This document shows, piece after piece, positions 4,438 to 55,837 of a stretch of 64,000 nt of DNA; positions within the stretch are counted from its first letter, which is position 1, and each line of letters opens with the position of its first letter. This DNA is from Physcia stellaris (lineage: Eukaryota > Ascomycota > Lecanoromycetes > Caliciales > Physciaceae): assembly GCA_018902385.1 (NCBI GenBank), contig JABSSW010000012.1, positions 310,001-374,000 on the forward strand. The letters are read 5' to 3'. Under the pieces are notes generated by a model, which saw only the letters and a list, made by a program, of their open reading frames with translations, had not been told where the DNA came from and searched no databases. The translations under genes were made by a program, and so were the position numbers.

Positions 4438-5897
4438 ATGGGAAAACCCAAGCGAAAGCATCCAGATATTGAAGAGATTATCGCAAGACCATGGTGCTAT
4501 TACTGTGAGCGCGACTTCGACGATTTGAAGATCCTGATCAACCATCAGAAAGCGAAACACTTCAAATGCGAGCGATGCGGACGAAGGCTCAACACAGCCG
4601 GCGGTGAGAACTCCCCCTGCGCGGACTTTGTGACAATCTAACGCGTAACCAGGTCTCTCTGTACATATGACCCAAGTACACAAGGAAAGCTTGGCGAGTA
4701 TCGAGAACGCTCTACCGAACCGCGCCGGTCTTGACGTTGAGATCTTTGGCATGGAGGGCATACCGGAAGACATTGTCACCGCCCATCAACAGCGCGTTAT
4801 TGGTCAGTTCGCTCAAGCCGAGGCCGAGAGGCGAGCTGCAACTGGCAATGCTGGCCCAGGCGCATCTGGGCCCGGCGCTGTGAAGAAGCCAAAGTTTGAG
4901 TCTCCTTCCGACCTCAAGAAGCGTCTGGCGGAGCACAAGGCAAAGAAGGCGGCCGAGCAAGCTGCGGGAATCAGCAGCGGAGATGCGACGCCTAGTGGTG
5001 CAGGATACGGAGGGCAAAGCCCTGGTCAAGGGCAGAGTCCCAATGCATTTGTAAGTTCTACCGTAAGTTCTATGCATTGCTAAACCTGAATATACTCAAA
5101 GATAACAAAACCAGGGCTCCCCCGGCTTTCAGCAAGGGCAAATGCAGTACGGCCCTCCACCGAACAGCACGAACTATCAAGGGTTTCCGCAGCCGTATGG
5201 TCAGCAACCTGGATCGTTCCAACAGCAGCCGCCTAGTTTCCCGCCACCGCAGCAACCCTCCTTTTCTCAAGCTCCTCCTGGATTTGGCTCGCCTGGCATG
5301 CTTCCGCAGTTCGCAAACAATCAACCATTCGGTGCGCCCCAACAGTTCAATCAGCAAGGTCCGGGCTTCTCGCCTCCATTTCAGAACGGGCCGCCTCAGT
5401 CGTTCAATTCCGCGTCACCACCTCCGTTTCAGAAACCACAGTTTCAACCGCCGCGTATACATACACCACCTCAACTCGGTACGGCTTCCCGTCCTGCAAA
5501 TCTCCCACCTGCGCCAGGTCTCCCTCAGCGCCCATCTGTTGGTGCGCCACCTGTGAACGCGTTCCAGATGCAGCAACTGCACCAAGGGCAAATTCCTACA
5601 TCAAACAATCCTCCCAACGGCCAGCACTTTGCACAGAGCTCAGCAGAGCAACCTTCACAAACTACACAGCCTGCCAATGTCCCTGCCAACGCATCTTCGT
5701 TAGATGATCTTGTGTCCGGCGCCGCCAAAGAGGCCGACAAGGTAGAAGCGGCGATTGCAGAGCGCAAAGAGGAGAAGAAATCGTCCAAGAAGGATAAGGA
5801 TAAAAACACAAAGCTTATCTACTCAGATAACGATGTCAGTCCGGAGGAGAAGATGGCTCAGCTGCCAAGGTACGCATTTGTTCCCAGTACAACTTAG
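4438..5897 (+). CDS. BuGZ/ZNF207-type C2H2 zinc-finger protein
   Basis: The three-exon model is 4438-4603, 4653-5050 and 5115-5897, giving 448 residues with all phases continuous. The N-terminus has two closely spaced zinc fingers, with [10 protein letters not shown] leading to HQKAKH and then CERCGRRL leading to HMTQVH across intron 1. The next block, ending [10 protein letters not shown], is characteristic of the ZNF207/BuGZ family. A long Pro/Gln/Gly-rich disordered middle follows. The end, [11 protein letters not shown], resembles the GLEBS motif with its Glu pair that binds the checkpoint protein Bub3 in animal BuGZ. In animals BuGZ stabilises Bub3, supports kinetochore attachment and has splicing links; the role in fungi is inferred. 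The ATG at 4438 is chosen because MGKPKRKHP matches the basic start of the family. Confidence 0.9.
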
Positions 5898-16474: not shown

Positions 16475-18190
16475 TCGTGCTGGGTAAAGAAGTCCGAAGA
16501 TAGCCAGACTTTTAATCTGCCGAGAGGGAAAAATAGCAGGAAAAGTGACAGTTTCTAGTGATGCTTTAAAAAAAAAAGTTCCAAGGCTCGCTGACACAAT
16601 GCCCTACCACAGCAATAGAGCCGAGATCAACACTCCTGACTGTGTTTAAACTAGATCTTGGTGTTGCCTGAAACAAGACATGGTAGTCTCAACCCGCTTC
16701 TCAAACCATCGATGTATATCGTCCCAGACCTGATAAGGACCACGAACAATGTGGAAAGCGAAGAACCGAAAAACGACCCTCTTGCTTCTGAACACACCAC
16801 ATATCAAACGTCGAAATAGCCTTCATGTGAACAGCAACTATTAAACCACAGCCTATGGAGATAACACTGCAGAAATTAAGCAAGCAGAGAGATTGCCCTC
16901 GGTCATATGGTGTCTTACGACAGTTGATTTTAGAGTCAGGGCTTCTCTAGGGATTCGTCTAGCCCGCATGAACAATACTTTACTCTTCGGGCATCAACGA
17001 TCAAACTACTTTAAAGTCGATGGGAGACGTTTCAGTATCTCTGCACGAGACCATAAAATCAAAGTTCCGTTCTGCGCGCGACACTTCGTCCAAGAAATGC
17101 ATCCCGGTTGGCTATGGTGTTAAATCGAAGGAGTGTCTGGATTTTAAATCATAGGTAGGGAGTTATTGGCTCTAATACTGCAAAGCTTGTCGAATTAACA
17201 CAAGTTCCTACATACTATATGGTGTCCGTGTAGAAACTGTTGATGACATGTTCATACAGTGCGCGCACGGAGTGTTGACTTGGAATAGTGAGGTTGATTT
17301 AAGGTTTTTACAATTCACTTTAGAATTCTGACATCGAGACGCAAATTCGAAGCACAAATGAATTGTGAAGAACGTGAAGAATGTGAAAAATGATCAGATA
17401 TTGACATAGTTGATCATATGACTTTTTATCTTAAAAGTAAATACGTTTGCCATTCATGAAAATTGTTAGATTTCAGAATTGAGTATAGCTTTATTCGCTG
17501 ACTTTGAAGTCGACTCTATACTATAATCTAATTCTGACTCGAAAAATATGATGAGTCACAGAATCAGCGATCAGAAAAATATGTCAAGTCATTCAAGAAT
17601 TTAGTCAATCAGTCATGATGAGAAATTTATTTTGGATTTCGTAAAATTTCAAGGGATAAGATATCCGATTAATCCGTGTGTGACAAGTGATCATATAAAT
17701 TGTTCGAGCCAGAGTTATCTACTCCACATATCATGTCACTTACCGAATATGATAGTCTGTGTTGCTTTGGCCTAGGCTATTAGGATATCCACAATTATGT
17801 TATTTTCAGCATTTTCGAAGTGGACAACGACGAAGATCTGGAGCAAGCTGACCCCGAAAGTCATTTGGGCAAGAGGGTAATTGGGGTTCATCTATCATAG
17901 TCAGGTATTATTGGTCAGAGATGGGGAACAGCTACCATTAACTCCTTAGCTTCTCGTCTGTTGAGCAGCCTATTTGTTCAGCTATTGAGATCAATATATA
18001 TTGAAGGTCGTTCAAATTAAAGGACTCTAAATATAGTACTTCTATTGAAATCGCCATGGATGTCTAAGGATATTTGGACTTGCTTACATGAGATTTTTAG
18101 GTCTCAAGCATTTGCCACATATGGCTATGAGAGTATGAATAGATATGTCTCGTAGACTACTCTGAAATAGTGATAGCTTTTCTCGACTCC
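16475..18190. other. AT-rich intergenic region
   Basis: From about 17.2 to 18.15 kb the sequence is AT-rich with many TGATCATAT-type words, but ApG and CpT are common, so it lacks the composition of the retroelement at 50.7-55.8 kb. No gene or repeat ends could be defined. Confidence 0.45.
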
Positions 18191-21536: not shown

Positions 21537-24044
21537 TCATACAGACCAACCCACCCACATCTTCGAGTCTTCTGTGCCAACATCAGACTTCTTGGATCTC
21601 CCAAAAAGTCTCTTCAAACGATGGGGACGTTCCTGGAGAGTATCACTCGTCACGACATCTTTACCAACCTCTTCACTTTTAGTCTTTAATCCGCCATTGT
21701 CCGCCGCACTGCTTTCTTTCTCTATCTCTGCTGTCCGTTCCCTCTGTTGCTGCAGCTGCAAAACCCTTTTGCGCTTCATCTCATTTGTTTCGGGTTTGTA
21801 TCTCCTGGCTGAAGCGGTCGAAATTAGTTCTTGTGTACCCTCGGTCCAGGGATTTAACTTACCAGCGTAGTCTCGAATCGGTCTTGGAGGGGACTCGAGC
21901 CGTTGCAGGATAGCACCAATGGCGACACCCAGGGAACCGGATATTGAGCCGTTCTGCTTCGAAGGGCCAGCTGAGGAGGCAGATTCAACCTTGCCTCCTT
22001 CCCCGGACAATTTCTCTGAATCATCCTTAGCAGTTTCTATTCTCCCCTCGGCCTGAAGCAATTTTTCTCCTGGTACTTTTGAGTTTGATGCTGGTGTTTT
22101 CGGTGATTTGAGGGTCCTCTTAATCACCTTTCGTGCCATGACCGATAACAAATAGATGATATCAGCGGCCGTAATGATGATCTCGTGGATGAAGAATATT
22201 AGCCCTGAGATAGGTATGAACAACAAAGCTAGTAAGACTTTTATAGCAAAAAGAACTCCATTCATGGATTGCTCATTGTAGGCTTGCCGCGCCCGGACAC
22301 CGGCTCGTACGTAGGAGTGTGGGGACTTAAGAGCACGCGCGAGCCAAAAGATAGTGTAGTACCACTGACTTTCCGCTGGAAGCCGCTTATTTAAATCATG
22401 ACCGACAAAGTTCCGCTGATTTGTCTTTTCAAGCTCTGTTGAGATCTTGTCCCAATGTTTTGACTGCTCAGCTTTCATCTTCTCCCTAGTACTTGCGTTC
22501 ATTCTATCCACCCGCGAGTTCCAATGGCGATCCATCAATTTCAGATTTGCAAGAAGCAAGAACGTGGTCAGCAATGCTATTGCAGTCGTCGGAACCATCA
22601 CGTATACTGTACTATACGTAGGTGCCCCTGCCATGCTGAACAAGCTGGAAGAGAAGGATAAGGGTAAGAAAATAATGGTCACATAGGTGAATAGGCGAAC
22701 GTCCGCTGCTGATTGGGTACTTGTGCGGGCCTCTAAGAGCTGCTTGTAGCTTAGTAGATTGCTATGCTGCCGCTCTGCAATTCTCCGCAGCTCTTTGAGA
22801 CGGCTCTGTTGCATGCGCAAAAATTGGACATTCGTCTTACACTTCATATTCAGTGTTTGAAGTTTTTCACCGTGACGTTTTTGGTCCTTGTGTGACCATC
22901 TGCTTCGGAGACCACTGGTGTCTTCTCTTTTCTCCCACTGTTCTAGTACGCTAAGCGCGGAATCCAACTGCTGCAAAATATCGCCCAAAGTTGATGCAGC
23001 CTTCAGATGGGGGCTAGAGAGATCATGGATGAGCTCAAAGTTTTCTTCTTGTTGCACCGTTGTCCCCAGTTCCTCAAGCTCAGTCTTGTATGCAGCGAGA
23101 ATGTCGTCTGTGCTTTTCTTCATTTCACTGAGCGCTCGCTCGACGTAAACCATTTCAAGAATCTTTCGTTGGCCTTGCTTGTCCGAGTAGAATTTCTCTT
23201 CATCTCCAGAGGAATGTCCATACTCGTCAACGAGACTCCGAAAACCGTGAAGGACAGAAGACAGGAAATTGCAGGTCCAAAAGCGGTCGCGAAGGTCGCC
23301 TGTAAGCCTGAAACTCATTGCAACATGCACGATTTTGCAATCGCGCGGAGCGCCTGGTAAGCTCAACATTTGCTCGCTGTTGTAGGCATGATAACGACTG
23401 GTTAGCTTAGGGTGTCTGTCATCTAGTAGTTGGTAAAAGCTAAGGTGAAGTTCAGTGTCCCAAATGTTCCCTAGCGGATGGCCACGTTCCCCAAAAAAAC
23501 TTTCTGAAAGATCATGGCGACGGAAAAACTCCATCAAGAGGGGTTTCTCGCTGTTTGGGGCACTTAACCAACAAGCCAAGACACTCCCCTTGTCATAGCT
23601 TGAAACTTCAATCAACCTTTTTTTTGCTTGTTCAGGCGATCGCGCTTCGTGTAGCCGCCGCCAGAAATCATGCTTGCGATAGTAATAGTCGTCTATATTG
23701 ATTCGACGCTCGAAGGATGAATATTTGTCGTTTGGCCTTAATTTCGTTCCAGAGTCAACAACTTTAGGGTAGAAGGGGAGTGCAATGGTTCCCCCCATAG
23801 GGAAGCTTCCGGTCTCTTTCCATGTAGCGATCGCAGACTCTAGACCCCTGACAGAGTTAAGTGTTTCAAGTTCTGCTCGAACATCAACGTTCAGTGGATT
23901 CTTGTGCATGAAGTCAGGGTAATAATACATCCAATCCGGCAAAAACCCTTGATCATTTACGTTTTTGTGATTCATTCGCGAAGACGTTTCTAAGGGGCTA
24001 GGCTTCATGGGTGTTATCCGCGTTTGTGGTGTAGTTTTTTCCAT
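21537..24044 (-). CDS. CorA-like membrane protein, GMN motif not conserved
   Basis: A single 835-residue frame without introns. The first ~430 residues are soluble and predicted helical, with Trp-rich motifs (WKETGSFPMGG, FWRRLHEARSPEQ) and long charged helices, as in the cytosolic funnel of CorA-type proteins. Two membrane segments follow near 452-470 (LFTYVTIIFLPLSFSSSLF) and 478-500. In CorA ion channels the loop after the first segment carries Gly-Met-Asn; here it reads SMAGAP. An extra hydrophobic region near 596-635 (LALLFIPISGLIFFIHEI) is unusual for the basic two-helix CorA. The tail is disordered and charged. Fungi have many such CorA-like paralogues; divalent-cation transport is possible but not shown. 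The gene lies 122 bases downstream of the TPR gene on the same strand. Confidence 0.75.
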   Translation of the reverse strand: MEKTTPQTRITPMKPSPLETSSRMNHKNVNDQGFLPDWMYYYPDFMHKNPLNVDVRAELETLNSVRGLESAIATWKETGSFPMGGTIALPFYPKVVDSGTKLRPNDKYSSFERRINIDDYYYRKHDFWRRLHEARSPEQAKKRLIEVSSYDKGSVLACWLSAPNSEKPLLMEFFRRHDLSESFFGERGHPLGNIWDTELHLSFYQLLDDRHPKLTSRYHAYNSEQMLSLPGAPRDCKIVHVAMSFRLTGDLRDRFWTCNFLSSVLHGFRSLVDEYGHSSGDEEKFYSDKQGQRKILEMVYVERALSEMKKSTDDILAAYKTELEELGTTVQQEENFELIHDLSSPHLKAASTLGDILQQLDSALSVLEQWEKREDTSGLRSRWSHKDQKRHGEKLQTLNMKCKTNVQFLRMQQSRLKELRRIAERQHSNLLSYKQLLEARTSTQSAADVRLFTYVTIIFLPLSFSSSLFSMAGAPTYSTVYVMVPTTAIALLTTFLLLANLKLMDRHWNSRVDRMNASTREKMKAEQSKHWDKISTELEKTNQRNFVGHDLNKRLPAESQWYYTIFWLARALKSPHSYVRAGVRARQAYNEQSMNGVLFAIKVLLALLFIPISGLIFFIHEIIITAADIIYLLSVMARKVIKRTLKSPKTPASNSKVPGEKLLQAEGRIETAKDDSEKLSGEGGKVESASSAGPSKQNGSISGSLGVAIGAILQRLESPPRPIRDYAGKLNPWTEGTQELISTASARRYKPETNEMKRKRVLQLQQQRERTAEIEKESSAADNGGLKTKSEEVGKDVVTSDTLQERPHRLKRLFGRSKKSDVGTEDSKMWVGWSV

Positions 24045-29452: not shown

Positions 29453-29782
29453 TTGATTTCGTAACACGCTGTCTCGTTGAATCAAATCTCGTAATTGATC
29501 TCGTAACACGCTGTTTCGTTGAATTGCAAGTCTCGTAGTATATACGCTGTCTCGTTGAATTGCAAGCTTCGTAGTTGATCTCGTAACACGCTGTCTCATT
29601 GAATTGCAAGTCTCGTAGTATATACGCTGTTCCGTTGAATTGCAAACTTCGTAGTTGATCTCGTAACACGCTGTTTCGTTGAATCAAGTCTCGTAATTGA
29701 TCTCGTAACACGCTGTCTCGTTGAATTGCAAGCTTCGTAGTTGATCTCGTAACACGCTGTCTCATTGAGTTGCAAGTCTCGA
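29453..29782 (+). repeat. Minisatellite of about 44-base units inside repeat copy A
   Basis: About nine units alternate between a long form (TTGATCTCGTAACACGCTG then TYTCGTTGAATTGCAAG then YYTCGTAG) and short forms in which the first part is replaced by TATATACGCTG or the middle by GAATCAAGTC. On the minus strand it reads as an open 115-codon frame with a repetitive peptide (ACNSTRQRVTRS), a by-product of the array. Confidence 0.85.
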
Positions 29783-29909
29783 AGCAGTAATGCAATCAAC
29801 GATATGCGACATGCGACATCCGACGAGCTAAAAACGACGCTAAAAGAGAAAGCGCTAAAAAGAATTCTTGTAAAAAATATACAGTATATTGTATATCATA
29901 TTGTATGAT

Positions 29910-29955
29910 ATGTCATGTCATGCCATGTCATGTCATGATATGATATGATATGATT
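29910..29955. repeat. ATGTC / ATGAT pentamer microsatellite
   Basis: A run of TGTCATGTCATGCCATG followed by GATATGATATGATATGAT, lying within repeat copy A just downstream of the minisatellite. Confidence 0.8.
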
Positions 29956-30642
29956 TAGAGAGTGAGAATGCTGATTTCATCAAGAGTCAATTGAGAATTG
30001 CTTGAACGAAACGCTCGATTTTTGCGATTTGAACGTAATTGTGTGTATATTCGAACGCAAAATCATCAATGCTTCAACGTATAATCGTGTATTGTCAATA
30101 ATGTGGTGTTTCGTACAACAGAGCGGTGGTGGTGGTGACAGGGCGGCCAGGTGGTGGTGGCGAAAGTGGTGATATTTGACAGCCCTAACCCTACGATAAA
30201 GCGCTGTTGCAGTTTGCAGGCGTTTACCTTGTTTGTGTTACTTCATCTCACTTGAGTATTCGCCCATGTGTCTATGCCTAGGCTTTGGCCTGGTTCAAAT
30301 AGAAGGTTCTACAGCATCAACAATCCAGACCGCACGCGATTCGGGCCCACTGCCGTTTGTGCCATTCCAGAAGCTTGATCACTAGTGTTTGTGGCTCTAA
30401 GAAAAATTGAAAGTTGTATGCAGTGGCTCAAAGAGTCACAAATATATTGCAATGAGATTACCATGCGCTCCGAGGATCAGATACAAAAGGTGGCTAGGGC
30501 CACTGAGACCAGGACCTGACCATCACTTGACCCCGATCGTAGCGGACAAGCTGTCATGGGAAAAACTAGGGACAGGTCCAAGCCAACGTTGAGAGCTGTC
30601 AGCAGCTTGTGAAAGCGTCAAGTCCATAGTGTCCATCAGGTC

Positions 30643-37645: not shown

Positions 37646-39339
37646 TCACTCCGCGATCGTTGTACTTCGCACCAAGGCTCTAATCCCTTTGGACCCCAGC
37701 TTCGGATACGCGACGTGGTAATCATGCCGAAATTCAACATCAGAGATATCGGTCTGGAACAATTCCATATCGTATCTAGCCACCGCAGCAAGCGCCAAGA
37801 ACATTTCCGCGTGGGCAAGATTGACACCGACGCAGTTCCTCCCGCCTTTATTGAATGCCATCTGGTATCTCCGTCTGTCGGTCCCCTCTCGTCCCAGCCA
37901 GCGCTCAGGCTTGAACGCCCATGGATCAGGGAAGATGGCTTCGTCTGTGTGCACGGAAAGGGTAGTCATGCTTACCGGGGTTCCGGCGGGGATTCGGTAC
38001 TCCTTGTATTGAAGGTCTTCGTCTGGGGCGATACGGCAGACTCGCGCCGTTACGCCGAAAGAAAGGCGATTTGCTTCAGCGATCACGGCGCTTAAATACG
38101 GAAGCTGCTCGAGCTCGGTCCAGGACGCGGAAGGAGGAACGGTGTTTAGTTCTGAGCGAACCCGATGCATGATTTCCGGGTTGGAAAGGAGATGGAAATG
38201 GGCGATGCCGATTGATTTGGCGGTCGATTCGGTCCCGGCCATGACGAGTAAAGTGCCTTCCTGCTCCAAGCGCGTCAGACTTTTCTCCGAGGGAGGCAGA
38301 ATTGCGCTATCTCGAAGTTCATAGAAGATCGAGCGTTTATCTTCTTTCTTGGATGAATCGTCGTCAAGCACTTCTTTGATTTCGGTACGAATGGCCTGAT
38401 TGTTGTCAGCATAGTCGCCGAGATGGTCATCTTCATGGTAACTTACCGTTGTAAATTCAACCATGTCGAGTACGCCGGGTGGCATTATGTGCTTTGCAAG
38501 AAAGAAGGGTAGTAGATCCAGCAGATCAACGATCCAAGGAAAATGCTGATTGAATTTTACACCGAGCAACAATTCTGATAAGTGAAGGCGCAGAGCTGAA
38601 GCTCGAAGTTCATCTTTGAGCAGGGAATTATCCTGTCCGAAGCTGTATTGAGAAACGACACTACTCTTTGCTTAGCCTTGAACTCACCCAGATATGGCTT
38701 CAAACCTACTCGTGCGCGAATGCATAGTATATATCCGACAAATTGATGGGCGTGCCATCGTTAGCGTGTCGGTCAAGCGAAGCACGTAGCAAATCAACCT
38801 TGCTAGAAATCATGGGCCCGAGAGCGACAACGCTTCGCTTGCTGAAGAACGGGTTGAGCGCTTCCCTTCTTTTACGATGCAATTCATGATTCATAGAGCC
38901 ACCAACGGACATCGGAACTTTCAACGTCCTCGTCTGAAAAGCGTATTTCTCACGCCGACGGTACGAAGGAGCGTAGATGTCGTCGAGGAAGTCCACATCT
39001 TGGACGTGAACTTCCCACGGAGATACTCGAATGATGGGGCCTTCGTCGCAATATCCTGTTAGAGTCGTTACAAGATTATGCCAATGCGTGTGGCTTACCA
39101 TATTCAGCATGTAGCTCCTTGATTTTCCAAATATATTGACCAGGTTTGACAACATCATAGTAGAATTCATACCAAGATGTAAGGGCAGCCAATCTTGGAC
39201 CAGGAATATGCGCGAGATCGGTGAAGAACAGTCTACGCAGTCCCTCGACGATTAGCCATAGTGGAAAGAGCAAGATGACAACAAGGATCAGTGTCGATGA
39301 TGCTTGCATATTAGGCATAGGATGGGTAGTGCTCGACAT
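37646..39339 (-). CDS. Cytochrome P450 (CYP65-like)
   Basis: The exon model is 39339-39099, 39055-38710 and 38642-37646, giving 527 residues with phases continuous. The protein has an N-terminal membrane anchor (TLILVVILLFPLWLIV), the hinge HIPGPRLAALTSWYEFYYD, a helix-I motif AGTEST, the ExxR motif as EANR, and the haem loop FNKGGRNCVGVNLAHAE with the Cys ligand. The pattern fits CYP65-type fungal P450s that hydroxylate secondary metabolites at the ER membrane. Intron 2 is awkward: using the GTAGGT donor at 38709 gives an in-frame protein, but the removed sequence still reads FEAISG just before a second, better GTGAGT donor, so a frameshift with a premature TAG is an alternative reading. No biosynthetic cluster surrounds it. 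Confidence 0.8.
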
Positions 39340-41541: not shown

Positions 41542-43275
41542 TCACCACTTTTGGATTTCGGGCTGATGCCAGTCAATTTTGTAGAACAGGGAATATCGTT
41601 GTAAATTAATTCTTCTTTTCCAAATATTCCAGCGTTCTTCCAAATCCGCATCTTTTCTCACCATAAGCCATCCACTAGTGTCAACGGTGACGACAAGTCT
41701 GATCTTACACGAAGCTGTCGACACAACCTCAAGTATTGTCTCAAGGAGATCGGTCACGTCATCTTCGCCTGTGTTGCTGTCGTCATCATCGTCAAGTGGT
41801 GCTATACGATCAAGGCGATCGATGACGATGCAGACCTCATCAGAGCCAGTCCATCCTCTGAGAAGATCTTGCAGGGTCTCTGTCCTTGGACGAATGCTGT
41901 GCCTAATATCATCTTGAATTTTCTGACGGGTTTGCGAGAAATATTCGTCATCCCAAAGAAGGATTTGAAGGATGAACCGTGAAAGACATAGATTAAACGG
42001 CTCTTTCCTGTTGCTATGCCTCGATGCTTCATCCCTGCACGCGGAGTGAAACAGAATCCTGCTTGTACCTCCTGACCTCTGCCCTGACTGATACAGCTCT
42101 GCAATCTCAGTAGTTATGGGGGAGAGCCAGCATAAGTTGCGCCCGGTATCATATCCATCGAAGTTCAAACCACTCAAAACAACTAACGACGATTGAGTGG
42201 TTTCTTCTGATAATTTATAGAAGTGGTGGTCTTTCAGGAGGTTAAGGCTGATCTGTTGGAGTTGTTTTGTAGCTTTCCTGCGAACAGATTCCACGAAGGA
42301 GTTGGCATGAAGGGTTCTACAGTTTGCCATCATGCTATCAGAATCGACGATATCCCAGCTAATACCGAGTTCTCTGGCCATCTGCGCGGATTCGTCATTT
42401 TTTTGTTGGGCCAATCTTTCTAAGCCTTGTCAGCATTGCAAATGCTAGCATTGCTCGACTGGCGTACTTTCCAAGTCTTTGGTTTGGTTAGCATAGGCGT
42501 GCACAAGAAGTGCATTTCCCTCGGAGACTACTTCATGGATGGCTTTCTTGATCTCATCAGCCTTGATATCAATGTAGAGCGTTGGTGGACGTCGGATTGC
42601 CTGCCACAGGCGTACTAATACAGCCGTCAAGCTTTCCTTGTGGTTTATTCCGCGTTTGAAGACTCACGATAAGGGGGTCGCGCGTAATACTCTGCAGAGT
42701 CTACCGCCAACTCTCCGATTCCTAGATATACATCTGCAAGGAAGGTTTCCATCCTCGACGAGGTCGGATGGGCATCGGAATAGAGGCTCAAGCGTCCAGT
42801 AACGCCCATCCACGACTTCGTGAGCTCTTCGAAAATGGAAGTTATCGCCTTCTCACGGCCTTGCTTGTTCTCGCCAACCTATGATATATCAGCAAAAGAG
42901 GGGCGCAATGCACGAGTCAGCCGAAGATGGAATTCCCACCTGAAGAAGAACCGACAGTGCGCCGGTGACCAGCGTGCCGTACTGCTTGTCAACACCTTTA
43001 GCAATCTCGTTCAGTCCAGAGTAGGCTTTCATGAACTGGGAGAGAGTTGACATGAATTTTTGTAAAGTAGGGCCAGTTTTTACCAAGGGCAGTCTGTTAC
43101 CACGCCGTCTATCGAGCTTCAATTTTTGCTCTTGAACCTCGACGACAGCATAATTTGCAAGAAGTTGTAAAGCCTTGCTGTCTTGTGTAATCTTTTGCTG
43201 CTTGGAAATTCTGCTCAATTTTGCTGCTATGGCTGCCTCACGGGCTTTTCGAGAATCCCCGCCAGTAATAGACAT
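41542..43275 (-). CDS. STAND/NACHT-related fungal protein (DUF7708-like N-terminus), no P-loop
   Basis: Four exons, 43275-42940, 42878-42668, 42614-42468 and 42425-41542, give 525 residues, all borders GT-AG and in phase. The first 230 residues are helical and match the N-terminal domain common in fungal NACHT/ankyrin proteins (LSQFMKAYSGLNEIAKGVDKQ, then FEELTKSWMGVTGRL, METFLADVYLGIGELA, LRLWQAIRRPP). The C-terminal half keeps a Walker-B-like strand (EVCIVIDRLDRI) and a later strand KIRLVVTVDTSGW. Where a GxxGxGK P-loop would be expected it reads VVLSGLNFDGYDTGRN. Such proteins belong to the NOD-like signalling repertoire of fungi. Without a P-loop it may bind no nucleotide and act as a partner or regulator; this is inference. 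Confidence 0.75.
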
Positions 43276-50713: not shown

Positions 50714-50718
50714 AGTGG
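50714..50718. repeat. Target site duplication, left
   Basis: AGTGG immediately before the TG of the left LTR; identical to 55833-55837. Five bases is the usual length for copia integrases. Confidence 0.9.
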
Positions 50719-50862
50719 TGTCAGACTTCTGGATAGGTAAGTCATTGATTGCATACTGTTCTATGGAGTGCTAATTTACATGGTTTTTAGCATCTAATGT
50801 CATTGAAGTGCGCACTAGTTACTAAGCTCTTGGCGATCTTTGATTGACCATTTAGTTTTACA
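50719..50862 (-). repeat. LTR (3' LTR of the copia element)
   Basis: 144 bases, starting TGTCAGACTTCTGG and ending TTAGTTTTACA on the plus strand. It differs from the other LTR at 15 positions, all transitions. At nine of these this copy carries the mutated base. Confidence 0.95.
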
Positions 50863-51535
50863 CATCTCTTTAAAAGGAAATATCTGATATTTCGTTTTAT
50901 TCTTGATGTTTTATTCATTTTCGATGTGATTCATGATGCGATTTATTCGATTTTTGATTGATCGAATTCGTTGTTTTTTTTTCGATTTTGATATCGAAAT
51001 AAATTTTAAATCAATCAATTTCACGAATGCTTTTTGCTTTTGAAATGATAAAATCTTGATGAAATCATCGATCAAAATATTCGTTGTAAAAATTCATTGA
51101 ATGTTGATCGTGTTTTTTTGCGTTTTTGACGTAATCAATGACGATGTATATCGACATGACGTAATTTAATGATTAATTTGATCGCTGACATAATAAACGT
51201 TCGTATAATTTGACGATTATCGCATTAAATGTAAATGAATTTTTTCATGTTCATTTGTATTGATTCAAAAAAACGATTTTATCGCATTTTGATGTTGATC
51301 GTCGTTGACATAATCGACAATTCGATTTCGATAAAACTAATTGTGATTGTTTTTGTTTTGTGATTTTTCAATCGATAAAATCGTCGAAAAACATAAAACA
51401 ATATTCATTTGAATTCTGACGAATGTCTAAATCGTTTGCGAATGACGCGTCTGAAAATTTTAAAAAATGATGATTTAAGCTGATTTGTTTGATTTTTGTA
51501 AACAATGACGTAATATTTGATGTGTGTCAAATATT

Positions 51536-52641
51536 TTAGCGTTCGAATCGTTTGTTTCGCATAATGTTTCGATGAATTCGTAAAATATTCAGATAATAAT
51601 GATGCAACAACGATCGCGTTTGATCAGTGATTGTTGCAACGAAATTGATCGATTCGATTTTTTGTTGATACATGTGAATTTTTTGTGAAATAACATTATT
51701 TTCATTCTTTATTATCGAAATATAATTGACTATAAATGATTTTGACTTTTTCTTGTTCATATTGATATTGAATTTGTTGATGAATTTATCGATATAATTG
51801 TTTTGACAAAACGACGTTGTTTGTTGCTTTCTATTGCGTGTAATGCGAATATTGAAAAATCATTCGATTTCGTCGATGTTTTTATTTCGTATGTTTCGAA
51901 AAATTTCTTTTCGAAAACGTCGATTTGTTTGAAATATTGAAAATAATACATGATTGTTATATCGTTCACGAAAAAAAATAAAATCATGTAATTATTGATG
52001 AATAAATACTCGATATCGAACATTTGTTTCAAATTTAAATTGTTGAAAATAATCGACAAATATCGATATCATAATGTTGAAAATTGTTTCAAATCATAAA
52101 ACGCTTTCAATAAAAATAATAATATATTGTTCGTTTTTTTTTAATCGTCAAACGATTTACAATAAATGAATTCGTCGATATCGTTATTTGCGAATGCGTT
52201 AATTGCGTCATATTGACGAATGTTCAAATCGAAAATTGTAATTATGATTATTAATGTTCGAAAAATTTTAATAATTAATGTAATTGCGTAAACATTTTGC
52301 TCGATTTGTTGAAAATCTTTTCGAACATACAATTTAATTTTGTGTTTTATCAAATATTTCTTATTGTCGAATTTGTATTTGAATATTCATGTGATAAATA
52401 TAGAAGTTTTTTGCTTGTTTGACATGATTTCATGATATTTTTTTCAAATTTGTTTTGATTGTAATGTCTTGATTTTCACGTCGATAATTCGTAAAAAGTC
52501 GACGATTTCAACATGTTTGAACATTTGATAATAAAATCTTGATTCGACGAAAAAATTGTCACGATGCGATTTCGTTTTTATCGTTAATGAAATCATGAAT
52601 GTTTCGTAAAATGAACGCGTTTTTTGCGAATGCGTTTTCAA
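51536..52641 (-). pseudogene. copia reverse transcriptase and start of RNase H, decayed
   Basis: Successive minus-strand fragments read as one RT. 52641-52444 holds the region before the RT core (KSHRDNFFVESRFYYQM). 52353-52141 carries the core start (KLYVRKDFQQ, then FDLNIRQYDAINAFANND). 52059-51757 carries FVNDITIMYY, matching the YVDD-type catalytic block and its surroundings (the usual Tyr is Phe). 51760-51536 holds the segment leading to RNase H (SINFVATIT). Typical Gly, Pro and Trp positions are replaced by Lys, Asn, Ser or Phe. Stops and frame changes separate the pieces. Confidence 0.85.
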
Positions 52642-53740
52642 AACAATGTAATGATTAAAATTTCGAAACGAATTTGATTTGCGAATACGAATGAATTTTT
52701 CGAATTGAATATTGATTTCGTCAATCGTTGTTTTCGTTCAATGTTTCGATTTTTCTCTTTCAACGACGATGCAAACGAGAATAATTTCTTTATTGTTTTT
52801 GCAACGACAAATGATGAAAAATTTTTTGTAACGACAAATGACGAAAAATCAAACGTATTTGACGTGTTTTTATCTTTTGACGAAAATGAAACAAATGAAA
52901 ATAAATATTTTGATTTAAAATCGTTTTCAATTGTTTGTTTGTGAAATTTCTTTGCATCGCGATCGATAATAGATTTTGTAAATGTTAATTTTAAATACAT
53001 TTTCGTCGCTGTTTGATTCGATGTTTATTATTTTCGTGAAATCGCTTTTCGATATGTCGAAGCGTATCGTTAATCAAAAAAAACTCGTTAACGAATTAAA
53101 TTAAATCTATTTCGTTAAAACGATAACGTGAATTTTCGTTGAATGTGATATCGCGTGTACGTATAATTTTTCGTTGATTAGAAATTCAAATCAAAAAAAT
53201 GTTGATGCTGTCATAATTTACAAAAAAATCGATATGTGTTTTGATTTTCATCTTTTTCTTTTTCGAAATATTTTTATTCAAAAAATATGTTTTGTTTCAT
53301 ATTGAACGATGTGAACAAAATTCGATTTTTGTCGATAATCATTTCGAACGATGTTTTTCATTCATGTTTTTGAAAAATGTACGATTCATTATGTAATCGA
53401 CGATTTCATTGATTCACGATCATAAATAAACAAATAAATTTGTTTCGAATTTCATTGTTCGTGATTTGATCAACAATATGTCATTTAATCGTTCGTTTTG
53501 ATCGTTTTATGTTAAAATATCAACGATCGAAAATTAAATGTGTAATGTTTTTGAATGCGCAGTGTCATTTCAGACAATGTTTAGCGCACGTTCGTCGTCA
53601 AAACGTACAAATACGATTTTGTCGTTGTATTTGATTTCGATGATGTGAATAATTCGAATAAACATTTTCGTGATTTGTTTTTTGTTTTCGTGCGTGTATA
53701 TCATGTGAAATTTTGTTTCGAAACATGTCACGTGCGATAT

Positions 53741-53941
53741 TCATTTGTGTTTGTTCAATGTCGTTGTCATATCGATGAAATCGTAAATAATTCGATAAAA
53801 CGATTTGTTTGAAATTTTTGACTTTTCAAAAAATTTGAATACGATTTTATGTGTTTTGAAAAATGCACATTTTTCGCATTTGTTAATTAAAAACATTTTA
53901 TTTTTGTTAATAAATTTCATTTTTTCAATTGTTTTTTGCAA
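53741..53941 (-). pseudogene. copia integrase zinc-finger/core remnant
   Basis: The frame contains CEKCAFFKTHKIV followed by FYRIIYDFIDM. This is the end of the HHCC zinc finger and the start of the integrase core with the first catalytic Asp region, as in fungal copia elements. It is truncated by stops. Confidence 0.7.
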
Positions 53942-54094
53942 ATGCTGTATGACGTCATTGTTAACATGAACGAAAAACTGATGTCATTTTAAAATAAATT
54001 TTTGTCGCACAGTGATTGCAAAAATGTTCATTTTTTCAAATTTATTATTTTCGAAAACGTAATGTGCATTTATTCTTGACACGAAAACGATCGA

Positions 54095-55648
54095 TCATCG
54101 TTTTTGTGCAAATGTTAAATGAATTGTATCAAAATGCGATTCTTTGTTTGCGAAAATATTATTCGCAACGATGTTGATCATGAAATCGAATACGTAAACG
54201 ATATTTAAAAATTTCATTGATTTTTTTTTTGTGAATGTATCGACGTTGATACGTATTCGATCATATGTCAAAATAAAAAATGATTTCATGTCGAACATAA
54301 TTTTCGATTCGTTTGTGCAATTTCGTTTTTTTTGAAAACGTTGTTTTATTGTGTTGTTGATCACGTGAATGTCGAAATCGTGATTCATAAATCATGACGA
54401 ACGAAAAAAATAATTTGACGAAAACGAATCGCTTGTAAACGATTTTATGACATTGACGTGAATGACGACGAAAAATTTTATTTCGACTTTTTTATTTTTG
54501 TTATCGTTTTTCTTTTGACGTTTTTCGTCAATTCGTTTGATGTTTTGTTTTATTTGCTTTTTCTTCTTTGAATTCTTCTTCGTTTTTTTTATTTTAGTCA
54601 CGATTTCTGATTTCAATTTAAAATCATCTGAGCGTATTTTATCGTTGATGTAAAAACACTCGTCGTAAAAATGTTTCAATTCGCAATAACAAAAATCTCG
54701 AAATTGATTTTGATCTCGAAATGACGAAATGTCAAAATGATTTCGATTGTTTGTGTGATTGCATTCGTCAATAACGAATGTCGAATTGAATATCGTTTTT
54801 TTTTTTTCGAATTTTTTTCATGCGCATGTGATGACGAAAAATCTCGATAAAAATGAAATTGAATTTCGTGATTCGTTACAATGTTTAATTGAAATAATTG
54901 TATTTCAGCGAAAATAAATGCGATTTTGTCGATTGCGTGTAAAAAATCACGATAAACTCGTTTGTTATCGATGATTTCAACAATTTTCGTTTGTTTAACG
55001 AAAATTAATATTTTCAAATAATCGTTTAGTCAAACATCGATGTTTTGACGATTGAATGAATTCTTGATCATGCGATTGTATTTTTGTTTCAATTTCAAAC
55101 TTTTAGTCGAATCGATGAATGCAAAACGTGTTTTGAAAACGCGAAAAACGATTAAATGAATGAATTTGACGATTTGAATAAAATTGAAATTTGTAATCGT
55201 TGTTGTATCGTAAATGTGATCGATTATTTTTGTCATGAAATTCTTTTGTTTTTTTCAATTTTGAAATTTTTTTTGTATTTCGATGTCGTTATTTTGTATC
55301 GAGCATGTTTCTCGTTGAAATTCGCATTTTGTTGTGTGTCAAAATTAAACTTTAAAAATTCAATTTTTTTATTGATTTAATATCGTTGAATGAATCGATA
55401 AAATTTCAAATCGAATATTTCGTGATTTTGATTCGTACGATCGAAAATCGCGTTTCAATTTTGAAAAAATTGATTTGAATTTTCGTTTCGTATTCGTCAT
55501 CGTGTTGAACGAGCGAATAAATAAAAGAAATTCTTGATTGTTGTTGTAAAAAATGTAAACAAAAAAGCGTTCTCGCGATGTTTTGATTTTTCGTGTTAAT
55601 TTGTCGAAACAATCGAATGCTGAAAATATTGATAATCAAATAAATCAC
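54095..55648 (-). pseudogene. copia gag and protease region, decayed
   Basis: Fragments at 54388-54095, 54679-54392, 55017-54676, 55236-55030 and 55648-55406 continue the element towards its 5' LTR. The first has a protease/pre-integrase layout (VYVFDFMINIVANNIF). The second has CFYINDKIR, probably the remains of the gag zinc knuckle region, then a Lys-rich stretch. No Pro, Gly or Trp occurs in any of these frames. Confidence 0.65.
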
Positions 55649-55688
55649 GTATTGAATGCGACAATTAAGCGTGATTCGAGTTCATAAT

Positions 55689-55832
55689 TGTCAAACTTCT
55701 GAATAAATAAGTCATTGATTGCATACTGTTCTATGAAGTGCTAATTTACATGATTTTTAGCATCTAATGTCATTGGAGTGCGCACTAGTTACTAAGCTCT
55801 TGGCGGCCCCTGATTGGCCACCTAGTTCTACA
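55689..55832 (-). repeat. LTR (5' LTR of the copia element)
   Basis: 144 bases, starting TGTCAAACTTCTGA and ending CTAGTTCTACA on the plus strand; ungapped alignment with the LTR at 50719. At six of the 15 differing positions this copy carries the mutated base. Confidence 0.95.
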
Positions 55833-55837
55833 AGTGG
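55833..55837. repeat. Target site duplication, right
   Basis: AGTGG immediately after the CA of the right LTR; identical to 50714-50718. Confidence 0.9.

Follow-up and report, generated by a model that had tools for sequence, protein, structure and literature searches.

A C-to-T mutation process in repeats of Physcia stellaris that affects CpC and CpT rather than CpA

A long terminal repeat (LTR) retrotransposon in the genome of the ascomycete Physcia stellaris raises the question of what has replaced most of the cytosines that precede a pyrimidine, on both strands, while leaving most CpA and CpG in place. The element occupies positions 50,719 to 55,832 of the window, the 64,000-nucleotide stretch analyzed here (contig JABSSW010000012.1, C12:310001-374000, within the 43,974,083-base, 147-contig assembly GCA_018902385.1). 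A preliminary description, made from the letters of the window, had proposed a process like repeat-induced point mutation (RIP) with a different 3′-base preference, namely for CpY (Y, C or T). Unmutated copies of the element, LTR pairs and other repeats agree in supporting this proposal, and that the CpY mutation process itself is real and genome-wide is well supported. We attribute it, with a probability of roughly three in four, to RIP-like repeat-directed mutagenesis by a RID-class enzyme whose 3′-base specificity has shifted to pyrimidine.

Twenty regions chosen by their match to the LTR, and not a random sample of the genome, comprise 18 with mutated copies and two with unmutated copies, L038 (C8:898400-904700) and L039 (C7:886000-892200). 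The two unmutated copies are 94% identical to each other and contain long open frames, two in L038 and one of 1580 codons in L039, a piece of which also matches RVT_2, the Copia-kind reverse transcriptase. The preliminary description had raised the concern that an unmutated relative might already be poor in CC and GG; both copies have ordinary CC/GG content and about 49% GC, and do not share the low-CC/GG composition. The window element aligns with L038 in reverse orientation (74% identity over 5,180 aligned columns), and its coding strand is therefore minus.

Relative to L038, the 19 mutated copies (that of the window and 18 others, some of them partial) had changed C to T at 5463 of 5734 CpC sites (95.3%) and 6000 of 7347 CpT sites (81.7%), as against 839 of 7950 CpA sites (10.6%) and 481 of 6942 CpG sites (6.9%). 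The target order in P. stellaris repeats is thus CpC > CpT >> CpA > CpG. Pooled over these copies, 11,463 of 13,081 CpY sites and 1,320 of 14,892 CpR sites (R, A or G) were mutated, which gives an odds ratio of 73. The window copy by itself had 946 of 1097 CpY sites mutated (CpC, 451/486; CpT, 495/611) versus 111 of 1251 CpR sites (CpA, 68/659; CpG, 43/592), a difference far beyond chance. As a control, comparison of L039 with L038 yielded 1.9 to 4.9% over the four contexts, with CpA at 1.9% and CpG at 4.9%. The early statement that CpA and CpG are spared therefore stands for CpG, which is near background, and has to be amended for CpA, which is low yet above background and not untouched. The second 3′ base had a mild effect: CTA was mutated at 72% versus 81–83% for other CpT trinucleotides, and CAA at 6% versus 9–13% for other CpA trinucleotides.

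The base 5′ to the cytosine was nearly without effect in the same 19 copies, the mutated fraction being 42% after A, 47% after C, 49% after G and 45% after T. This bears on the possibility, entertained in the preliminary description as another deaminase, that the changes stem from a cytidine deaminase of the AID/APOBEC kind working on intermediates of reverse transcription or on single-stranded mobile DNA. Such an enzyme would account for dense C-to-T change on retroelement DNA, and the genome has eight PF00383 cytidine-deaminase matches. AID/APOBEC-kind enzymes, however, read the 5′ base, whereas here the 3′ base decides; the two strands of the window copy were struck equally (540 C>T, 517 G>A); and the same kind of mutation marks a DNA transposon, an element that moves without reverse transcription. 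A deaminase origin is thus disfavoured, and we consider it very unlikely.

The LTRs of the window element differ, as had been reported from the letters, at 15 positions, all of them transitions and all (15/15) at CpC or CpT on either strand; for this pair alone, p = 2.7e-4 if context were ignored. Over six mutated pairs (window, L035, L036, L037, L040, and L048, whose LTRs lack a matching flank duplication and may not be a true pair), 94 of the 99 substitutions were at CpY, three at CpA and none at CpG, and two were transversions. In the two unmutated pairs, those of L038 and L039, five of 17 substitutions were at CpY and 12 were other changes; indel columns were left aside in this tally, one for L038 and four for L037. 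The two LTRs of an element start out identical when it inserts, so that their differences at CpY rule out inherited composition. Moreover, because the mutated pairs differ almost solely by CpY changes, with background changes near nil, the changes came in bursts.

Within its 5,114 bases the window element has six CC and ten GG, beside 305 CpG and 650 CpA plus TpG, and from 51001 to 55600 it contains neither CC nor GG. The GC content of its interior is 22–31% (200-base bins), compared with 43–54% in the 2-kb bins of the window outside the element. The hand counts of two interior samples in the preliminary description were recomputed, reading one base beyond the end of each sample: 36 CpG, 9 CpT and 0 CpC were recovered exactly, while CpA came to 22 instead of 21. 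The genome contains many copies of the element (40 LTR matches). The parts of the window copy, with CpY sites scored against L038, are as follows.

50719..55832, minus strand: LTR retrotransposon, Copia type by its relatives, delimited by the LTR pair and by alignment to the unmutated copy L038; saturated with C-to-T changes at CpC and CpT on both strands
50719..50862, minus strand: low-end LTR, 144 nt, 10 of 31 CpY sites mutated
50863..55688, minus strand: element interior, about 84–94% of CpY sites mutated per bin of about 490 bp
55689..55832, minus strand: high-end LTR, 144 nt, 6 of 33 CpY sites mutated
50714..50718, no strand: target-site duplication AGTGG, low-end copy, 5 bp
55833..55837, no strand: target-site duplication AGTGG, high-end copy, 5 bp

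The LTRs of this copy are accordingly less mutated than its interior. In the first 100 bp outward, the low-end flank holds nine CC plus GG and 12 CT plus AG, and the high-end flank four and 15, respectively. In the nearest 100 bp outside each of four elements, CT plus AG number 11–15, which is normal, and CC plus GG 2–13 as compared with about 11 elsewhere. Mutated DNA stops at the element borders, that is, at the LTRs. Also in the window are a cytochrome P450 gene near the element (37646-38572) and two weak matches under the curated cut-off, one CorA-like (21537-24044) and one to NPHP3_N (41542-42414).

These borders and LTR pairs also bear on two sources of change that homology would not direct: ultraviolet (UV)-type dipyrimidine damage, and gradual deamination of methylated CpY over long periods. 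CpC and CpT are dipyrimidines, which speaks for the former. TpC dipyrimidines are nonetheless spared, with TCA mutated at 265 of 2329 sites and TCG at 162 of 2495, like ACA at 170 of 1832. In addition, the flanks keep their normal CT plus AG, and the LTR pairs do not show the background changes that age would bring. We thus regard UV damage or slow decay as a highly improbable source of the mutations. Given the target contexts of the respective agents, a 3′-base preference with little 5′ effect favours a cytosine methyltransferase-type enzyme over AID/APOBEC and UV.

The same mutation pattern extends to other DNA. We compared 22 AT-rich blocks (92,020 bp) from the window and the fetched regions with the remaining 152,825 bp. 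Only 37 CC plus GG are left in the blocks, and the ratios of blocks to the rest are 0.22 for CpT, 0.21 for ApG, 1.00 for CpA, 0.90 for TpG, 1.09 for CpG and 1.23 for TpA. A loss of CpA masked by saturation is ruled out, as CpA and TpG occur at close to their usual frequency. Outside the element family, 17 pieces (32.7 kb) have the same composition, save two short window stretches (17321-17620 and 29701-30100) that are included among both the 22 blocks and the 17 pieces and resemble ordinary AT-rich DNA. In five alignments among the non-family pieces, scored at sites sharing the 3′ base in both copies, C/T differences were found at 118 of 151 CpT, 4 of 4 CpC, 35 of 383 CpA and 28 of 350 CpG sites. 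A 901-bp piece of DNA transposon (L055, DDE_1) has a single CC/GG and 53 CpG. The preliminary description had looked to other repeats for its check; these do not show mainly CpA-to-TpA changes. Mutated DNA outside the family lacks CC/GG and retains CpA and CpG, and the stops inside RVT_1, RVT_2 and DDE_1 matches across the genome are mostly TGA. C:G-to-T:A mutation is concentrated in repeats while neighbouring DNA is spared, and several repeat classes including a DNA transposon are affected, both of which are features of RIP in the broad sense. Nothing observed favours an ancestral composition low in CC and GG, chance, or an assembly effect; they are refuted by the ordinary composition and long open frames of L038 and L039, by the CpY differences within LTR pairs and by the affected DNA outside the family, and we give them practically no chance.

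Under the genetic code, CpA-type RIP yields TAA and TAG from CAA, CAG and TGG, whereas a CpY-type change creates a new stop from TGG alone, as TGA. Six-frame searches, independent of the LTR match, were tallied for the best-scored candidates (the best 150 of 527 for RVT_1 and the best 150 of 165 for RVT_2); the tallies count matches, several of which can come from one element. Among the matches listed, internal stops interrupt 133 of 137 to RVT_2, 140 of 150 to RVT_1 and 9 of 10 to DDE_1, and the stops inside these listed matches are 695 TGA, 137 TAA and 6 TAG. In the P450 control, 23 of the 108 matches listed have stops, distributed as 14 TGA, 18 TAA and 18 TAG. Seven aligned copies agree at the codon level: 153 of 182 TGG codons have become TGA and 23 TAA, with no TAG among them; 144 of 170 CAA and 130 of 142 CGA codons are unchanged. 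Ten of the 259 CAG codons have become TAA, and 27 are unchanged. Because TAA codons arise, CpA is not wholly exempt. The predicted coding damage thus differs from that of CpA-type RIP in that tryptophan codons turn into TGA, and CAA and CGA mostly survive.

As a separate observation, the best of the PF00383 matches (C64:178666-179121, minus strand) contains four internal TGA stops. These fit a duplicated host gene struck by the CpY process; introns could also explain them.

Which enzyme might be responsible was approached through a PF00145 search of the genome, which identified three C5-methyltransferase genes, two RID-like and one DIM-2-like, in keeping with the expectation in the preliminary description that a methyltransferase of either type could be involved; this search reported no other PF00145 gene, for example one homologous to DNMT5 or DNMT2. 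The first RID-like gene, on C6, encodes 513 residues with a PCQ motif, an EET triad, a 76-residue target recognition domain (TRD) and QIGNAVPP. The second, on C5, encodes PCQ, an EQT triad and an 83-residue TRD, its frame running open to the edge of the examined locus and its start not fixed. Splice sites of both genes were picked by eye. The two RID-like proteins (L031 and L033/L034) share 39% identity across a 170-residue stretch of their catalytic regions, and in a PDB sequence search the RID-like protein RID-B aligns with M.HaeIII and DNMT1. Published work, cited throughout from the available parts of each source, gives an EQT or EET triad together with a TRD of about 80 residues as signatures of the RID family, reports the EET triad in Botrytis cinerea and Pseudogymnoascus destructans (PMC6709928), and places RID/Masc1-class genes in Ascomycota only (PMC4352252). 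The presence, as predicted from sequence, of RID/Masc1-class genes is therefore, as presence only, a further feature of RIP in the broad sense. No in vitro cytosine-methylating activity had been shown for RID-type proteins according to the available part of the 2019 PaRid paper (PMC6709928).

The third gene, on C3, has an ENV triad and a complete catalytic domain and is DIM-2-like, matching PDB chain 9bap_A, a DNA (cytosine-5-)-methyltransferase, at 2e-181; we take this structure to be that of DIM-2. A DIM-2-like enzyme could itself be the CpY mutator if heterochromatin marking were followed by CpY methylation and then deamination. A Pre-SET (DIM-5-type) gene is present alongside the complete DIM-2-like gene, and in Neurospora older genomic repeats are reported to undergo RIP without RID, a double knockout being needed to abolish it (PMC11969663). 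The near-pure CpY burst in the LTR pairs, with its few background changes, is however unlike slow heterochromatin decay, and the changes end at the element borders. We therefore regard a DIM-2-like mutator as unlikely.

We infer instead that the responsible enzyme is of the RID class. A RID-class C5-cytosine methyltransferase would scan homologous duplicated DNA during the sexual cycle and would convert C to T either by methylation followed by deamination or directly. The TRD of one of the two RID-like proteins, changed in this respect as we infer, would select CpY and not CpA; the first candidate would be the EET-triad protein encoded on C6, and the second the EQT-triad protein encoded on C5. 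Saturation of both strands, the sharp border, LTRs less mutated than the interior and the range of repeat classes all match RIP. We also hypothesize a link between the EET triad and CpY specificity; Botrytis has CpT signatures, but so does Magnaporthe (PMC4352252).

Several observations weigh against RIP-like mutagenesis by a pyrimidine-specific RID-class enzyme. The specificity is not absolute, as CpA is changed at 10–15% in the heaviest copies and 2–9% in lighter ones, over a background of 1.9%; the excess in heavily mutated copies might stem from a second enzyme or from leftover activity. CpT changes gave no strand-run signature, their clustering having a phi of 0.152 for same-strand and 0.145 for opposite-strand neighbours. 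L038 and L039 escaped mutation despite their 94% likeness and diverged LTRs, which implies that the process is not fully efficient, can be escaped or acts only seldom. A chromo-shadow family search of the genome, conducted without a positive control, gave no match for HP1. Finally, some flanks have only 2–5 CC plus GG in their first 100 bp with normal CT plus AG, so there may be a slight edge effect beyond the element borders.

The process shares with classical RIP its near-saturating C:G-to-T:A change, its action on both strands and on several repeat classes, and the presence of RID- and DIM-2-like genes; it differs in that CpA is not the main target. RIP in Neurospora crassa has the order CpA > CpT > CpG > CpC, and that in Trichoderma reesei CpA ~ CpG > CpT > CpC, so that CpC, the least favoured dinucleotide in both fungi, is the preferred one here (PMC5496416). 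Classical RIP is recognized by a TpA/ApT of at least 0.89 and a (CpA+TpG)/(ApC+GpT) of at most 1.03, whereas PMC7882544 applies more stringent criteria, >1.15 and at most 0.75, respectively. The mutated blocks (92,020 bp) have values of 0.44 and 1.34, that is, negative RIP indices. A second, classical RIP layer was considered and rejected: the lenient indices are satisfied by 17 of 940 windows of 500 bp, but all of these have a GC fraction of 0.43–0.59, keep their CC/GG and are ordinary-looking DNA. We therefore file the process as RIP in the broad sense, and not as classical CpA-type RIP, two tested features of which are absent.

CpT-biased RIP is described in Magnaporthe oryzae, Botrytis cinerea, Sclerotinia sclerotiorum, Colletotrichum truncatum and Anisogramma anomala; such species show CpA changes too, and some C. 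truncatum families show CpT only (PMC4352252, PMC6180176, PMC10998396). The term "CpC" is absent from the text of these three papers, the first of which, in its available part, lists CpA, CpT and CpG signatures. CpT is a major target in both cases, whereas in P. stellaris CpC ranks above CpT and CpA is spared relative to an unmutated copy. CpT also dominates in alignments of Tad1 of N. crassa, a classical-RIP fungus (PMC2621366), and in those of RIP-positive controls (PMC7882544), and CpT targeting by itself is not new. Short ribosomal DNA repeats of Stagonospora nodorum have high CpT to TpT and no evidence of CpA to TpA (PMC2621366); they differ, as far as the available text goes, in being a small sub-class among repeats that are otherwise CpA-type, in that the authors doubt RIP, and in that no CpC excess is stated. 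Monilinia shares the mention of CpC changes, which there are double mutations from CpC to TpT that accompany classical CpA-to-TpA change (PMC8959702). In Basidiomycota (Microbotryum, Puccinia and Melampsora), which have a Masc2-class enzyme, RIP-like mutation is of CpG type (PMC4352252). That process is likewise a repeat-associated C-to-T change with a dinucleotide signature, whereas CpG is the least mutated context in P. stellaris, near background and at 1.09 times the level of other DNA in the blocks. Methylation induced premeiotically (MIP) in Ascobolus, the process of Masc1, methylates without mutating (PMC6709928); it would have in common a RID/Masc1-class enzyme acting on repeats, whereas the DNA of P. 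stellaris is mutated. In the open-access papers that were examined, a pattern of CpC > CpT with CpA spared is nowhere described; subscription literature lay outside this search, and the pattern may be known elsewhere.

RIP-like defences have been concluded to share a CpA preference (PMC12543289, in its available part), a conclusion to which the P. stellaris pattern is an exception. A RIP-like process can be very strong and still escape surveys based on TpA/ApT and CpA+TpG ratios. There is, in our estimation, an even chance that the RID family includes CpY-specific mutators in which recognition of a 3′ A has given way to that of a 3′ pyrimidine and which leave CpG and CpA intact; these may be members of the EET branch found in Botrytis and Pseudogymnoascus. 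P. stellaris provides a natural specificity variant in which only three candidate methyltransferase genes were found, and thus makes it testable what sets the RIP target base. If CpY-specific RID proteins do exist, genomes that carry them would score RIP-negative in index-based screens, which may have missed an entire class of RIP.

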